DNA of 32,449 bases from a virus, in the IMG/VR virus record IMGVR_UViG_3300044695_001839, positions 1 through 32,449 of that record; one strand, given 5' to 3'. This document shows, one piece after another, positions 1,365 to 29,700 of the stretch (positions are counted from its first letter, which is position 1; each line of letters begins with the position of its first letter). A model generated the notes under the pieces. It made no database searches. It had not been told where the DNA came from and saw only the letters and a list, made by a program, of their open reading frames with translations. The position numbers and the translations under genes are program-made.

Positions 1365-1463
1365 CTTTTTTGCTGGTCGGTATTGAGCTTTTAAAAAATA
1401 AAAAAATTTCTTCTGACACCTCCGTGACCGCGACCGGCCTGCCGCCGGCCCCCCACCCCCCAG

Positions 1464-1586
1464 GTTAGTGGGCACTCACTTCTGTGTTGTCAGCCTGGCA
1501 AGTTAGTAAGCACTAACTAACCAGGTTAGTAAGTACTCACTTACAAAGTTAGTGGTCACTAACATGACAGGTTAGTGGTCACTAAC
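1464..1586. repeat. Array of five palindromic iterons
   Basis: Five copies of a 16-bp near-palindrome with arms GTTAGTG and CACTAAC start at 1464, 1502, 1525, 1548 and 1571. The last four are spaced by exactly 23 bp, about two helical turns; the first is offset by 38 bp. Copies 4 and 5 are identical (GTTAGTGGTCACTAAC); copies 1 to 3 vary in the centre and right arm (for example GTTAGTAAGCACTAAC). Regular spacing and dyad symmetry suggest cooperative binding of a dimeric protein on one face of the helix. Confidence 0.85.
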
Positions 1587-1609
1587 TGTTAGCATAATGC
1601 TACCAAACC

Positions 1610-1618
1610 TGTGGATAA
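1610..1618 (-). other. Consensus DnaA box
   Basis: The plus strand reads TGTGGATAA, so the minus strand is TTATCCACA, the canonical high-affinity DnaA-binding 9-mer of proteobacteria. It lies 23 bp after the last iteron. A single 9-mer could occur by chance, but its place beside the iterons makes function likely. Confidence 0.65.
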
Positions 1619-2535: not shown

Positions 2536-3288
2536 ATGCAAAATCCATTCAAAGCACAATTAAAACGTGAAGGCCTGGAATATCGCCGCGTTTTGGGCGA
2601 ATCCAGCGCCAAAACAATCAAAGGTGAAAAAATCGGCTACTTGACGGCCATATGTTACTTGGTACCGGATGAAAAGCTTTGTCCGTTTGCGATTATGGCC
2701 GGCTGTTTTGACGGCTGTCTAAAATCGGCCGGCCGCGGCGCGTTTAATGCCGTGCAAGCGGCACGCGCCGCCAAAACCGCGTTTTTCCGCGAGAATCAGC
2801 GCGCGTTTATGCTATCAATGGCCGCCGATGTATGGTCGCACGCACGCCGTGCGGAAAAATTAGGATTAATCCCGCTTGTGCGGCCGAATGGCACAAGTGA
2901 TATCCCGTTTGAGAATATTCTCATTGACGGCAAAACGATATTCCAGCTGTTCGCTGACGTACAGTTTTATGACTATACGAAACACCCTAGCCGAAACCTG
3001 ACGGGCAAAACGGCCGGTAATTATGATTTGACGTATTCATTCAGCGCTATCACGCCGAAACCGATATCAATCAAAGGCCTGATTAACCCGGCCAATAAAC
3101 GCACGGCCGTAGTATTCCAAAAGCAGGCCGATATTCCGGCCGAATTTCGCGGATGGCCTGTCGTTGACGGCGACGACACTGACGTACGCCATATTGAGCC
3201 GGCCAACGTGGTAGTGGCCTTATATGCCAAAGGCAAAGCAAAACGCGATACCGGCGGATTCGTTCAAATTAAAGGTCGTGACTACTAA
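2536..3288 (+). CDS. Phage gp88-like / DUF7227-like protein
   Basis: A 250-residue soluble protein, the largest of the early cassette. I start it at the ATG at 2536 behind AAGGGA; the frame is open further upstream, but that part overlaps the previous gene. It matches my memory of a widespread phage family annotated gene product 88 or DUF7227: an N-terminal KTIKGEKIGYLTAICYL segment, a cysteine cluster CPFAIMAGCFDGCL (about residues 50-63), SAGRG, a helical middle and the LVRPNGTSDIPFENI signature near residue 120. The three closely spaced cysteines could bind metal or Fe-S, which is inference. Biochemical function is unknown. It overlaps the next gene by one base (TAATG). Confidence 0.7.
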   Translation: MQNPFKAQLKREGLEYRRVLGESSAKTIKGEKIGYLTAICYLVPDEKLCPFAIMAGCFDGCLKSAGRGAFNAVQAARAAKTAFFRENQRAFMLSMAADVWSHARRAEKLGLIPLVRPNGTSDIPFENILIDGKTIFQLFADVQFYDYTKHPSRNLTGKTAGNYDLTYSFSAITPKPISIKGLINPANKRTAVVFQKQADIPAEFRGWPVVDGDDTDVRHIEPANVVVALYAKGKAKRDTGGFVQIKGRDY

Positions 3289-4263: not shown

Positions 4264-4298
4264 GCCCGTCAGGATCAAACCTGACGGGCTTTTTTTTT
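4264..4298 (+). terminator. Strong rho-independent terminator of the early cassette
   Basis: A perfect 10-bp GC-rich stem (GCCCGTCAGG / CCTGACGGGC) with a 6-nt loop is followed by nine T residues on the plus strand. A second hairpin (GCGGCT / AGCCGC, 4235-4253) precedes it. It isolates the rightward early genes from the convergent primase-helicase gene, whose stop codon lies in the T tract. Confidence 0.93.
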
Positions 4299-6612
4299 AC
4301 TTGACTAGCCGCACCGCTGACGGCGGCGGTGTTTCCTCCACCATGCGGCGCAATTCTGACTTTGTGGCCGTGGCGGCCAGCTCTGGCGCACAGATAATGT
4401 GCTTACGGGTGTCAAACTCCCGCGACTTTAGGCGCCCCATATCGACCCAGCCGGCTTCTTTCAACGCGTGCAATAGTGCCTGCTGTACCACGCGGGTGCT
4501 CATCGGCGCCCCGCCCTGTAGCCGGTCGCACAGGCTATAGAACGGCGCCGCTACCACGCCGGCAGCAAACTCGCCCAAGCGGCGCTCGATCATCTCGACA
4601 AGGTACGACTCGGCAGTCGACCTGCCCTGCTCGACCATAATGATTTTCGCCTCGGTCAATGGTGGTGTCGCGCCGGGATTGAACCGCGACACGTCACGCG
4701 CATATAGCCAGCCAGCAGCCACAGCTAGGCCGCCGGCCTTGTACCAATCCCAGATCGCCCACGCGTCCGCCTCGGCCATGCGCGGCGCCTCGGAGTACGT
4801 CACAAACCAGCGGCGGTCATCTCCTGACACCGATATGGGCACGCGTTCATTAGAAAACGCGAGAACGAAAATACGGTTTAGTGCCTGATACGGGTGCAGC
4901 CCCTTACGGTTCACTTGCAGGAAATCTGGCGGGGCGGCGATGATGGGCTTCAGATGGTTCTCAAGCGCGCGGCGGTCTTTCGCTTCCGCTTGGCGCAGCT
5001 CTTCAAACACCATCACCTCGGATTCATACGCGTAACCCCATTGCGACTGAATCTCTTCATTGCGGACAATCGACACGTTCGATAGCGCTTCACCACCAAT
5101 GCCCCATAAAAACGGCTGCCACATGGTGTCTTTACCGCTGCCAGGGTGACCGATATGCAGCACCGCGTGGTTGATCTTGCGGTTTGGGTGCTGGAGCTTG
5201 TAGGCCATGACGTCCAAAACGTGGTTGCGCTCGACCGGGTCGGGAATCATGCGCTCAACGTGATCGAGCCATATTTTTGCGTTGCCGGTGGCCGCTGTTG
5301 GCCGGTGATCGACCCAGCGGTTGCCATACGCCTGCCCTTCACGCGACACAAGCACCGTCTCGCCAGCGGCGTAGGTGATGCCGCTGATGGTCAGCGCGTC
5401 CTTGGCCTGCCGGTTCTCGTCATAACAAATTGACGCCTCAATGCGGCGCTTGCCCGTTTTCGTCGGGTGGATTGAATAACAGGTGACGTGTCGAAAGAGT
5501 GCGTTAAAAGTACCGCGACTAATCTCGCGCCGATCGTCCATGTCAAAGTACGCATCTTCGTTTTGAATGTACGCAAAGCGTTTGTACCAATCATCTTTCG
5601 TTGTCCTATCCAGTTGCTTTTTCTCGACCTCTGCAATGACTTCAGCGCCCTTGTCTGGAAATGCTTCAGTCGGCGTCAGTTTGGATAGCGCCGCGTCCAT
5701 CGCATGCGCTAGTAGTTCCTCACGCAGTCCAGGCGCGTGTTTCGGCCCACCATTGGCCGACACCCAATCCAAAAACGCATGCGAGTCGAAGTCAACGCAG
5801 TGCGAATGCAGACAGCGGTATGAGCGCGTTGACGGGCTGTAGCGCCCCTCTGGGTTGCCGTCGGTATGCTCGTCCTTGTTAGGGCAGATGACGCCAGCCC
5901 ACCCGGCAGGGTTTGGTGTCGACAACAGCACGCCCTGATGCGAGAGCCACGCCATCACGTCATCGGCGCCGTCATCCGACAGGCGGATAGGACGCACGCC
6001 CAGTGACTCAGCGGGCGCTGGCGTGACATTCAGAGCGGCGCACACCTCTGGCAGGCTGTACTCGCGCTCTGGGTGGAACTCGACCAGACGAGCGGCGAAG
6101 TTATCCCGCCCCGGCTTGATATTGATCGACCCCGGCAGGCGGAAGTTGCGCACTGCATTGCAGGCGCCGGGGTCGGTGTAACCGGCGTCCGCAATCGCTC
6201 GGATGGCCGCAGCGTACTCGCCGGTGGTCGGCTGCTCTGAAAATGCGTAACCCCACTGGAACGACCCGGCAGACGTCTCGATGATCCATGTCGGCGCAAG
6301 CGGCGGCGTGTTAGGCGCTTTCTCAGGGTCACCTACATCATCCAAGACCATGACGAGAACGTAGTCGGCATTCGCAGCTGACGCAGACACATGGCCGTCC
6401 TTGAACCGGTCGATGATAAACGACGCGGTGTTGCCGTAGATTGCCCAATCGGGCTTAGTCGGGTAGTCGGGCAGGTACGCCGGCCATGTGCAGATCACCG
6501 CGCCGTCGGGGTGCAGCTGAATCTGTCCGCTTTTGAGTTTAGGTTTCTGGCGGACAACTAATGCAGTCTCACCCTGTGGTGCCAAATTAGTATAAAATTC
6601 GAGGAAATCCAT
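4297..6612 (-). CDS. Primase-helicase (zinc-binding, SF3/D5-like, DUF5906-type)
   Basis: A 771-residue replication protein. The N-terminal part (about 1-200) resembles RepB/NrS-1-type primase domains. Next comes a putative zinc-binding segment (CPNKDEH near residue 242 and CLHSHC near 265), as in phage primases. The C-terminal half is an SF3-like ATPase: Walker A GHPGSGKD near residue 488, a Walker B-like VMVFEEL near residue 530, and NRIFVLAFSNERVPI with GDDRRWF, the usual signature of D5/DUF5906 helicases. It would unwind origin DNA and prime synthesis for the polymerase encoded just upstream. AAGGA lies 6 nt before the ATG. Last gene of the leftward replication operon. Confidence 0.85.
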   Translation of the reverse strand: MDFLEFYTNLAPQGETALVVRQKPKLKSGQIQLHPDGAVICTWPAYLPDYPTKPDWAIYGNTASFIIDRFKDGHVSASAANADYVLVMVLDDVGDPEKAPNTPPLAPTWIIETSAGSFQWGYAFSEQPTTGEYAAAIRAIADAGYTDPGACNAVRNFRLPGSINIKPGRDNFAARLVEFHPEREYSLPEVCAALNVTPAPAESLGVRPIRLSDDGADDVMAWLSHQGVLLSTPNPAGWAGVICPNKDEHTDGNPEGRYSPSTRSYRCLHSHCVDFDSHAFLDWVSANGGPKHAPGLREELLAHAMDAALSKLTPTEAFPDKGAEVIAEVEKKQLDRTTKDDWYKRFAYIQNEDAYFDMDDRREISRGTFNALFRHVTCYSIHPTKTGKRRIEASICYDENRQAKDALTISGITYAAGETVLVSREGQAYGNRWVDHRPTAATGNAKIWLDHVERMIPDPVERNHVLDVMAYKLQHPNRKINHAVLHIGHPGSGKDTMWQPFLWGIGGEALSNVSIVRNEEIQSQWGYAYESEVMVFEELRQAEAKDRRALENHLKPIIAAPPDFLQVNRKGLHPYQALNRIFVLAFSNERVPISVSGDDRRWFVTYSEAPRMAEADAWAIWDWYKAGGLAVAAGWLYARDVSRFNPGATPPLTEAKIIMVEQGRSTAESYLVEMIERRLGEFAAGVVAAPFYSLCDRLQGGAPMSTRVVQQALLHALKEAGWVDMGRLKSREFDTRKHIICAPELAATATKSELRRMVEETPPPSAVRLVK

Positions 6613-26721: not shown

Positions 26722-28274
26722 CGAGAACCGTTAGACACTGTTACGGTAATGCCGTTTGACACCGATATAACGCCTGCCGACATACCCGACGATCCTGACG
26801 GGATAGTGTAACTGGTAGCTATTGTCAGGCTGTTAACAAAAATGCCGTTAGACGCTACGACATGCGAGGATGTTAATTCACCTGTGCTGGGTTTGTACAG
26901 CAGTTTTGCGTTGCCGGTATAGATGGTCGACATCGTGCCGGTGGTCGCAGCAGCAAACGTCGGGTACAGGTTCGTTGACGTTGTTGTGTCGTTAGAAATG
27001 TTGATGCTGGCACCACCCGTTGCCCACTTCATGCCGGTGGCTTGCGTAGAGTCTGCCGTCAAAACAAACGTGTCGCTGCCAATCGGCAGACGCACATTGT
27101 CCGTGCCGTCATACGCAATCAAGTCACCCTTGGTGGTGGCTGGCGACAAGGCGTCAAACGCAGCCAATTTAGTCGTCTGGCCTGTACCGCCATTAGCTAT
27201 GGCCACGGTGCCGGTGACGTTGCTGGCCGTGCCTGTGGTGTTTTGGTTTAGCGTTGGTACGTCAGCTGCCTGAATGGCCGCCATAACAACGTTGGTGCCG
27301 TTACCACGCAGATACTGGCCAGACGTGACCGCTCCAGCAAACGCATTCATGGCTGTCTGAGCCGTTGTCTGCCCCGACCCGCCGTTAGCGATTGGCAACG
27401 TGCCGGTCACTTGGGTAGCCAAATCAACGCCGGTTAGCGTGCCGCCTAGTGTCAGGCTGCCGCTGGACGTCACCGTGCCCGACAAGCTAATGCCGTTGAC
27501 CGTACCGGTGCCGGAAACGCTGGTAACTGTACCGGCGTACTGGTCGTTCGACGTAATGGTAAAGTTAGGGTAGGTACCAGAGATGCTGGTTGTGCCCGCC
27601 CCGGTCAACGCCACTATCTGGTCTGGTGCTGTATTGGTAATCGTAAAGCTGGGGTACGTGCCCGACGTGCTAATGCCTGTGCCGCTAGTCAATACTACCG
27701 TCTGGTCTGGCGCAGAATTACTGATGGTAATGGCCGTTGACCCGTTGTACGTCGTGCCCGCGCTGTACGAGATGCCCGTGCCAGCAGTCAAAGCGTTAGC
27801 TACGCTACCTGCTTGGCCGCTAATGTTGCCCGTTATTTTGCTGCCGGCTAGCGACGTAATCCATGTCGGGTCAGCATAGCTGCCAGACGTATAAACGCCG
27901 TCAGTGACGGTGTTAGCGTTGCCGGTAACGCTGATTGCCCAAGTGCCTGTTGCGTTGGTGCCGTCTGTTCTTGGTACATCCAAATTGACGCGGGCGTTTG
28001 TCGCATTGATAGCGCCTGTGCCGCCGTTACTGACATTTAGTGCCCCACCTAGTGTGATCGTGCCTGACGTGGTTACGGGGCCGCCAGAGGCCGTTAAACC
28101 CGTCGTGCCGCCCGAAACATTGACCGACGTGACCGTACCCCCACCGCCGCCTGATTCGGCCTTGTTGAGCAGGTTAAGGAAGAACCGGTACCAATCGCGC
28201 GCAACAAACCCCGATCGCTCGTCGATGATCTGCGATTGGATACGGGGTATTTGCGGTTCGTTATCGCTAGGCAT
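26706..28274 (-). CDS. Repeat-rich tail fibre / tail structural protein
   Basis: A 522-residue Gly/Thr/Ser-rich protein. The N-terminal 45 residues (IIDERSGFVARDWYRFFLNLLNKAE) are a helical virion-attachment segment seen in related phages. The remainder is beta-rich with internal repeats: three copies of a GTGIS/GTTSIS-GTYP-FTIT module with APDQ-V-LT spacers (about residues 180-235), and several copies of IANGGTGQTT-like units. It ends ISVSNGITVTVSNGSRWVVV, similar to the end of the fibre at 19827-20717. Probably a fibre or tail appendage. It overlaps the gp10-like gene upstream by 8 bp and the SET gene by 16 bp. Confidence 0.78.
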   Translation of the reverse strand: MPSDNEPQIPRIQSQIIDERSGFVARDWYRFFLNLLNKAESGGGGGTVTSVNVSGGTTGLTASGGPVTTSGTITLGGALNVSNGGTGAINATNARVNLDVPRTDGTNATGTWAISVTGNANTVTDGVYTSGSYADPTWITSLAGSKITGNISGQAGSVANALTAGTGISYSAGTTYNGSTAITISNSAPDQTVVLTSGTGISTSGTYPSFTITNTAPDQIVALTGAGTTSISGTYPNFTITSNDQYAGTVTSVSGTGTVNGISLSGTVTSSGSLTLGGTLTGVDLATQVTGTLPIANGGSGQTTAQTAMNAFAGAVTSGQYLRGNGTNVVMAAIQAADVPTLNQNTTGTASNVTGTVAIANGGTGQTTKLAAFDALSPATTKGDLIAYDGTDNVRLPIGSDTFVLTADSTQATGMKWATGGASINISNDTTTSTNLYPTFAAATTGTMSTIYTGNAKLLYKPSTGELTSSHVVASNGIFVNSLTIATSYTIPSGSSGMSAGVISVSNGITVTVSNGSRWVVV

Positions 28275-29700
28275 TGGTGCCCGACAAAACTAATTCGGCA
28301 CCCACAATCGATATTTTGACCGGGTCAGTGCCGGAGATTTCATAGACACGGTCACGCAGTTTCAACGTCATGCCCAGCCGGCGACGGATGGCACGGGTAC
28401 CGTAAGCCCCAATCTTGCCAGCCGACATCCAATGCTCGTTTGACCATGTGTGGCCGCCGTCATCCGACCAGCGCAACATAACTTGCGGGTTGCTGCCTTG
28501 GCCAGTGTTTAGCCCCACACCGGTCTGCATGTCGATTTGCAGCGAGTGCTGGGCAGTACGCTTTAGGTTGTTTTGGCCAGTTGGCAGCGCGCGCCACGAC
28601 CGCAGCCACTTCTGAGCAAAGTCGCCGTCAGAAAACTGGTCTAAGTCGTAAGCGTAGATGTTGCCGTTTTCAAAGTCACCGACCACCACTTCTTCGCTGT
28701 AGAACATCTGGCAGTTAGCCCGGTGGCGGATAAACTGCCCGTTAGCAAATCCTGCCCGTTCATGCCAGGCGCCGGTAGCTGCGTCGTACACCCAAGTGGC
28801 CTGCGCCGACGGGAAGGTCAGCACATAGAACGAATGGCCGTCCTGCTGGTAGGTAAACGCAATCGCATCCGATATGATTTCATAGCTCTGGATAGCATAC
28901 TCAACCGCATGGGTGGAGATGCGCTGCCCTGCGTAGCCATTGGCACGAAACACGATGCCGTGGCCACGGGCGTCTGCGCCCAGCCAAAACAGCGAGTTGT
29001 CCATCTTGGCCACTGAAAAAGTAGCCGCGCAGCCAAACTCGTTGACCGCACCTTGGATACGCGCTAGAGGAAAGCCTTCTAGCGCAGCGTCGTACCAAAC
29101 TTCCACCGACTGAGTGCCAAACAGCCACACCTCGCGGTGGTCAACAAACAGCGACACCAAATTGTCTGGCATACCTTCAGCGCTGGCAAACGACAGCGGG
29201 TCAATCTGGGTGCCGTCCAGCAACTCAGACGTCCAAAAACGGTCTGAGTTGGGCTCTTGGAAAATAAAATAGCCGTCCAAATACCCAACAGTCACCGCGC
29301 CGGGAAAGTCAATATCGGTGATCTGAGCTAGCGTTTCACTAGCGGCGTCGTAAATGTAGCTAATCGGGTTAGTGGCGATAAACAGCTGGGTGCCGTTGTC
29401 TACCATCGACACGGGGCCTGTGCCAGCGATTGGCCCGATGGGCTGCACGTTCCATGTAGAGTCCACGCGGTACAGCCGGTTGCCCGACACCGCGTAGCCG
29501 TAGTCACCGTATGACCACAAGCCCCGAATAGGGCCGGTGCCAACGGTGGCAAGTTTACGCAAGCCTGGGGCACGGTTTAGAAACCCGCCGGTCTTGCCTT
29601 CTGGCGTAGGTAGTGGTTCGGGATACAGGTTAACCATGCGGCTGTCCGCAGCGTTAATACTGCGGGCAACATACGCTTGGCCAAGAATTGGCGTCTGCAT
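28267..29700 (-). CDS. Head completion / packaged DNA stabilisation protein, P22 gp10-like
   Basis: A 477-residue protein, nearly the length of P22 gp10 (472). The N-terminus (ARSINAADSRMVNLYPEPL, then GFLNRAPGLRKLATVG, IRGLW) is the conserved opening of this family. Multiple Trp/Gly-containing blades follow (GYAVSGNRLYRV, YFIFQEPNSDRFWTS, LWLGADARGHGIVFR-like), consistent with a beta-propeller plug in the tail hub. It follows the gp4-like gene by 3 bp, the same order as in P22. It holds packaged DNA in and forms part of the tail machine. Confidence 0.87.
   Translation of the reverse strand: MQTPILGQAYVARSINAADSRMVNLYPEPLPTPEGKTGGFLNRAPGLRKLATVGTGPIRGLWSYGDYGYAVSGNRLYRVDSTWNVQPIGPIAGTGPVSMVDNGTQLFIATNPISYIYDAASETLAQITDIDFPGAVTVGYLDGYFIFQEPNSDRFWTSELLDGTQIDPLSFASAEGMPDNLVSLFVDHREVWLFGTQSVEVWYDAALEGFPLARIQGAVNEFGCAATFSVAKMDNSLFWLGADARGHGIVFRANGYAGQRISTHAVEYAIQSYEIISDAIAFTYQQDGHSFYVLTFPSAQATWVYDAATGAWHERAGFANGQFIRHRANCQMFYSEEVVVGDFENGNIYAYDLDQFSDGDFAQKWLRSWRALPTGQNNLKRTAQHSLQIDMQTGVGLNTGQGSNPQVMLRWSDDGGHTWSNEHWMSAGKIGAYGTRAIRRRLGMTLKLRDRVYEISGTDPVKISIVGAELVLSGTNA

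Follow-up and report, generated by a model that had tools for sequence, protein, structure and literature searches.

Palindromes resembling SlmA-binding sites beside a probable replication origin in a phage family

Lambda Kil, T7 gp0.4 and T5 Hdi are phage proteins that block division of the host cell. Phage P4 alpha is a primase-helicase whose C-terminal DNA-binding domain recognises short origin repeats, and both iteron plasmids and lambda-type origins carry repeats beside an AT-rich tract, the plasmids also having a DnaA box. SlmA is a TetR-family nucleoid-occlusion protein that antagonises FtsZ when it is on its DNA sites. E. coli cells with a multicopy plasmid that bears SlmA sites in tandem stop dividing and die, an effect that depends on SlmA (PMC3573117). 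The E. coli ChIP consensus of this host protein is GTGAGTACTCAC, and exclusion from the terminus is a published signature of its sites (PMC3116907). SlmA binds DNA as a dimer of dimers (PMC4423959, PMC5519180). In the literature searched, no report of SlmA sites in phage genomes was found.

The window analysed here, meaning the whole stretch of DNA, is a 32,449-bp linear virus fragment with its left end inside the terminase large-subunit gene. Between its terminase and early genes lies an array of five palindromes. We consider it likely that this array recruits host SlmA and that beside it lies a probable origin with 9-bp iterons read by the predicted winged helix of a VapE-like primase-helicase. 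The proposed outcome, inhibition of the FtsZ ring during infection, is that of Kil, gp0.4 and Hdi, but these are proteins, whereas the array is DNA and would act through the FtsZ antagonist that the host itself provides. Like the chromosomal SlmA-binding sites (SBSs) of E. coli and Vibrio cholerae, the phage sites have the GTGAGTACTCAC core within a 20-bp extended palindrome in which every fourth base is free, and their pattern is over-represented in chromosomes that encode SlmA and scarce around the terminus. The chromosomal sites, however, are single and scattered (24–52 per E. coli genome), while the phage sites are packed at one place in groups of three to seven. The array also resembles the pUC-2xSBS multicopy plasmids (PMC3573117) in placing several SBSs on a high-copy replicon, with an expected spread of active SlmA and a Z-ring block; those plasmids are a laboratory E. 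coli construct, whereas the phage array is natural and viral.

The palindromes and their likeness to SlmA sites

The palindromes start at positions 1464, 1502, 1525, 1548 and 1571, with spacings of 38, 23, 23 and 23 bp, and are restricted to the terminase/early intergenic region of the window. They are genuine: the pattern GTNAGTNNNNACTNAC has six exact matches in the window, every one within the array, against 0.025 matches per dinucleotide shuffle (maximum 1 in 200). An earlier note on this DNA had listed five 16-bp palindromes. Its starts and spacing were reproduced, but the size applies to three sites only, since those at 1502–1521 and 1525–1544 are 20-bp palindromes of the form GTNAGTNAGYRCTNACTNAC. 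Site E (1464–1479, 16-bp form) reads GTTAGTGGGCACTCAC on the plus strand. The 20-bp sites D (1502–1521) and C (1525–1544) read GTTAGTTAGTGCTTACTAAC and GTAAGTGAGTACTTACTAAC on the minus strand, with 15/20 and 16/20 identity, respectively, to the published SBS consensus oligo, and the 16-bp sites B (1548–1563) and A (1571–1586) both read GTTAGTGGTCACTAAC.

The symmetrised consensus of 198 phage 20-mers, GTTAGTGAGTACTCACTAAC, contains the E. coli SlmA consensus GTGAGTACTCAC at 12 of 12 positions. The core of the published SBS consensus oligo, GTAAGTGAGCGCTCACTTAC (PMC4423959), fits the phage pattern GTNAGTNAGYRCTNACTNAC exactly, and GTTAGTGACC is contained in SBS17 (PMC4423959) as well as in sites A and B. 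The 20-bp site can be read as two 16-bp sites offset by 4 bp, an arrangement that would fit the SlmA dimer of dimers, and the 16-bp forms would probably each hold one SlmA dimer. This likeness was spotted on inspection and then tested, and the half-site match alone could be luck among many motifs.

For the chromosome test, the phage pattern GTNAGTNAGYRCTNACTNAC was searched with up to two mismatches and compared with its reversed control. The 17 genomes with a strong SlmA gave 105 pattern matches vs 59 for the reversed control, and the 128 genomes without an SlmA over the cut-off gave 71 vs 218. The enrichment in SlmA genomes corresponds to an odds ratio of 5.5, with a Fisher p of 1.5e-16 that counts non-independent sites, so that site-level p values overstate independence, and a genome-level p of 6e-5. 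Several SlmA-bearing genomes, e.g. G047, G110, G039 and G138, showed no enrichment. In three SlmA-bearing chromosomes, oriented by dnaA and with approximate lengths, the 33 matches lay at a mean of 0.36 of the ori-ter distance, nearer dnaA than expected (p 0.002). None fell in the last 24% of that distance, whereas some control matches were located near the terminus.

Additionally, a betaproteobacterial bin that includes an array-bearing phage contig encodes SlmA (273.7 bits vs a cut-off of 120), a host link that consists of one binned contig of a related phage. The recognition helix of this SlmA, SEAALYRHF, is identical, and the FtsZ-contact residues F65 and N102 are kept, while R73 is not. 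Few such sites were observed in the bin outside the phage contig. On the strength of the consensus and of its chromosomal distribution, SlmA probably binds the five-palindrome array, and our confidence in this reading is substantial but not complete.

Conservation and loss of the array among phages

Scans for the terminase small subunit (TerS) and the VapE-like primase-helicase collected 149 loci from relatives. The search for the array in related phages that had been proposed earlier was rewarding, with 58 distinct conserved arrays that include 198 twenty-mers and 76 sixteen-mers. Most near relatives have three to seven sites upstream of terS, packed into about 70–250 bp per array, and wherever an array-bearing virus record was searched over its full length, the sites were limited to one locus per genome. 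The genome had also been described as circular; the record of the window is a linear fragment, but six full-length relatives are circular contigs. Each of these is opened at a different point, so the array marks no fixed genome end. In one contig (G020; L193/L194), a 121-bp exact inverted terminal repeat was observed, both sides of which end inside the array; it is probably an assembly fold-back at the palindrome.

The array is missing in four loci of close relatives (L020, L115, L116 and L122), in much of a distant clade, in MW202483 and in Rhodoferax phage P26218, and it is therefore dispensable. Terminase relatives with known hosts (Rhodoferax P26218, Methylophilales Venkman and Pelagibacter HTVC100P) contained no arrays. 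In L020, L115, L116 and L122, and in seven contigs in all, the array is replaced by another cassette of about 150 bp. These four loci retain the DnaA box, and the array-less relatives are unchanged in their terminase gene and still have the G-run/AT-rich element and the region upstream. Compared with array-bearing relatives, the TerS proteins of the four loci are 98–100% identical, the VapE proteins 96–99% and the PolA proteins mostly 98–100%, the comparison for L020 covering TerS and one early protein only. At the corresponding spot upstream of terS, L124 and L125 carry a different array, in which a unit of about 20 bp (CTGTACCGTTCAGTAATAAT and variants) occurs six times.

No gene was found that is present with the array and absent without it, either in the early region or when the window's genes were compared genome-wide with the available part of the array-less G010. 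The swap and gene-content comparisons exclude the initiator, TerS and any other gained or lost phage protein as the binder. They rule out the GP88-family protein (PF17338), VapE, TerS and a small early protein as candidates. The earlier suggestion that a phage protein may bind the palindromes is not supported, as the array is lost with near-identical replication proteins and no gene tracks it. A PHROGs scan of 20 window proteins (the small ones together with TerS, VapE, PolA and others) assigned no DNA-binding regulator; the exceptions were a homing endonuclease and a zinc-ribbon protein without an assigned role. A host protein would be the simplest alternative binder of the array.

Same-site arrays were also identified by the pattern scan in contigs without the window's terminase (L281/L292, L327, L302, L284, L288, L319 and others). 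Over longer stretches, these contigs had little in common with the family beyond, in some of them, a GP88 gene and a few scattered genes. The GP88-family protein, encoded in the window's early region at 2536–3288, is shared with three of them (L281, L327 and L302). In the unrelated contigs, the array again has a terminase operon nearby, but of a different kind, and a GGGGGCC element often adjoins the array. A scan with the 20-bp consensus returned 34 contigs with at least three terminase types. Most arrays are near terminase genes, those in L300 and L430 being 5–6 kb away. No replication gene common to all array-bearing phages was found, and when phage and plasmid records were searched by BLAST with the region or a synthetic array, no array was returned, only one weak and siteless plasmid match.

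GTTAGT-N4-ACTAAC sites with a different centre occur every few hundred bases across several kb in the 169-kb contig L299 and in L303, beside CTGGCCGGCC motifs. They are perhaps operators or promoters of another regulator. We treated these scattered sites, and also the pairs seen in actinobacterial and further genomes, as motifs of another kind.

Possible roles of the array

In the mechanism that we propose, the 20-bp palindromes would dock SlmA in the manner of the published dimer-of-dimers site. Each replicated copy of the phage genome would add five SlmA sites, and SlmA would be pulled onto many phage molecules across the cell. The likely outcome would be a block of host division, as with the multicopy SlmA-site plasmid. 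Because SlmA and tandem multicopy sites block division, and a replicating phage would be such a replicon, SlmA recruitment with a division block is the reading that we favour. Given SlmA binding, the chance of the block appears somewhat better than even. If true, phages would block host division not by a protein but by a DNA stretch, multiplying the sites for the host's FtsZ antagonist. This would be the natural counterpart of the laboratory multicopy SlmA-site trick and would give nucleoid occlusion a part in the conflict between virus and host. For array-bearing phages, the prediction is that infected slmA-positive cells stop dividing and slmA-negative ones do not.

A pure division-block role does not predict the clustering of arrays near terminase operons in several lineages. 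It is possible, though on balance doubtful, that the array binds SlmA for gene regulation or DNA placement rather than to block division. SlmA bound 130–250 bp upstream of the terminase gene could activate or time late transcription; other variants are that the array titrates SlmA, or that it holds the origin and packaging region of the phage close to the membrane. The chief competitor of the division block is SlmA-dependent late transcription, because in V. cholerae SlmA switches on a promoter when bound 167 bp upstream of it (PMC5519180) and the arrays of unrelated phages are mostly near terminase operons. Placement is in keeping with the ability of SlmA and FtsZ to gather SlmA's DNA site at membranes (PMC7468209). 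Against regulation, loss of the array leaves the terminase gene, the upstream region and the G-run/AT-rich element in place in relatives, so late expression can do without the array. Furthermore, E. coli SlmA is not known as a gene regulator (PMC3116907), and the few arrays 5–6 kb from the terminase gene are poorly placed for it.

It is unlikely that the palindromes are operators through which another TetR-like or other regulator, of phage or host origin, governs the divergent late and early units. Palindromic sites spaced about 23 bp apart, with divergent units on either side, would suit such operators, and bacteria that are unlikely SlmA hosts, Actinobacteria among them, also have GTTAGT-N4-ACTAAC pairs. 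However, no regulator gene tracks the array, and the consensus and the chromosomal enrichment fit SlmA specifically. No sigma70-like promoter overlapping the array was found; a perfect sigma70-type early promoter, TTGACA-N16-TATAAT, is located at 1905–1932 on the plus strand, about 320 bp from the array. The operator idea of the earlier note survives mainly as SlmA-dependent regulation.

The adjoining probable origin and the VapE-like primase-helicase

The region has further elements besides the palindromes. A perfect DnaA box, TTATCCACA, was found at 1610–1618 on the minus strand, 23 bp past the last palindrome, and the AT-rich tract at 1386–1410 is present on the opposite side of the array, both as the earlier note had reported. 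The box is conserved in relatives, where it is usually the sole perfect one in the locus and often lies exactly 32 bp from the start of the first palindrome. Five loci with fewer than three palindromes or without an array retain it. The AT-rich tract is part of a longer element at 1386–1459 (minus strand GGGGGGTGGGGGGCCGGCGGC...AATTTTTTTATTTTTT), which combines it with a G-run and GC-rich block and sits between the array and terS. Nearly all inspected TerS-bearing relatives keep this element, array or not, and it is a candidate unwinding or packaging element. A GGGGGCC-like block beside the array is also seen in the unrelated lineages G022, G023, G026 and G027. In L025, L059 and L021, as well as in the array-less cassette of L115, L116 and L122, we observed the palindrome GTGAAACATGTTTCAC or a spaced version of it. 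This palindrome resembles parS half-sites in reversed order and is placed between the DnaA box and the array.

A second repeat of this region was overlooked by the earlier note. It is a 9-bp word, TTGCCCACA, which with its variants starts at 1347, 1356, 1642, 1651 and 1660 on the minus strand and at 1777 on the plus strand. The copies form a tandem pair (TTGCCCACA, TAGCCCACA) at 1347–1364, beside the terminase gene start, and three tandem words (TTGCCCACA, TTGCCCACA, TAGTCCACA) at 1642–1668, both being probable VapE-binding iterons. The variant TAGTCCACA at 1777–1785 has the opposite orientation. In relatives, the word is TTGTCCACA, TAGCCAACA, TGACCCACA, TGACTAACA, TGACGTGCA, TTGCCTACA or TTACCCGCA, often in tandem with a 9-bp period, and the words switch in concert between relatives, at similar positions. 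Across nine full genomes, 37 of the 40 exact word copies are no more than 900 bp away from the start of terS, with about 0.3 per genome expected by chance.

The VapE-like primase-helicase is encoded at 4297–6612 on the minus strand (DUF5906, 2.3e-11; DNA primase PHROG, 2.7e-26; RepB_primase, 1e-4, just below the cut-off), and it has both the primase and the SF3-type helicase domain of a P4-alpha-like initiator. Its C-terminal domain (residues 655–771; 4300–4650, minus strand) is a predicted winged helix. Among 36 distinct VapE proteins, identity over residues 711–750 (4363–4482) followed word sharing with a partial correlation of 0.51 against a null maximum of 0.15. The corresponding values for TerS, PolA, DUF2815-like, DUF2800, GP88, e52, e95 and e87 ranged from −0.17 to 0.09. 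As the intervening genes are at about 0, linkage does not explain the covariation. For instance, L112 and L118 are 98.7% identical elsewhere, yet they differ both in VapE 711–750 and in the word. The signature RLKSREFDTRKHII goes with the word TTGCCCACA, RLKSREYDAKKHIF with TTGTCCACA (similar in the distant clade), RLASRE[FH][GS]TKKHIF with TAGCCAACA and RLRSRDFDARKHII with TGACCCACA. The one clear exception to the rule, L007, has a mixed word set. The AlphaFold2 model of the VapE C-terminus (pLDDT 79) has a helix-helix-wing order, and its wing loop contains K729 and D734. A PDB structure search with two models of the C-terminus placed winged helices among the top matches, none with E<0.001.

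The covariation of initiator and words makes it likely that the 9-bp words are iterons and that VapE is the phage initiator, and the terminase/early intergenic region probably holds a replication origin on which the primase-helicase acts. The 9-bp words and the predicted C-terminal winged helix of VapE fit the example of P4 alpha; unlike alpha, VapE has no significant solved-domain match, and within a single phage family its specificity has diverged to at least eight different words. The repeats beside an AT-rich tract and the DnaA box recall iteron plasmid and lambda-type origins, but the palindromes follow no phage initiator.

The earlier note was accordingly probably right about the place of a replication origin, in a conserved region with a DnaA box, whereas its reading of the palindromes as the initiator's iterons is not supported. 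A plasmid-like origin, in which a phage initiator would bind the palindromes and DnaA would assist at the adjacent box, would account for the array, box and AT-rich tract standing together, for the recurrent 32-bp distance and for the confinement of the array to one locus per genome. We regard it as very improbable. The array is gone in L115, L116 and L122, with near-identical replication proteins, and in L020, with a near-identical TerS. No phage gene covaries with the palindromes, which are common to phages that share no replication gene, and it is the 9-bp words of the same region that covary tightly with the initiator. The DnaA box persists without the array, and the GC-skew profile that the earlier note had called for has no inflection there, its extremes following gene strand, which is weak evidence in a small (37-kb) genome. 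A packaging site, with TerS binding the array as pac or cosB upstream of the terminase operon, is hardly credible: the array does lie directly upstream of terS, with the G-run and GC-rich block in between, but TerS is 98–100% identical with and without it, unrelated terminases share it, and contig ends are not gathered at one base.

The pairs of wing signature and word point to at least eight initiator/iteron specificities in one phage family, which would constitute a natural recognition code. With pairs that are a few wing residues apart, this series offers a system for studying the protein-DNA recognition code and why phage origins diversify. A broader proposal joins the origin to the array. 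Unrelated phage lineages would carry a cis-acting array that, with no phage protein needed, makes SlmA block division during phage multiplication, and the initiator wing and 9-bp iterons of the adjoining origin would have co-diversified into at least eight specificities that may separate the replication of coinfecting relatives. This combined proposal is tentative, and we place it a little below an even chance. Finally, MW202483.1, a circular related genome without the palindromes, has TGTTTACAT/ATGTAAACA repeated many times at the equivalent place (28190–28600), possibly its own origin word.
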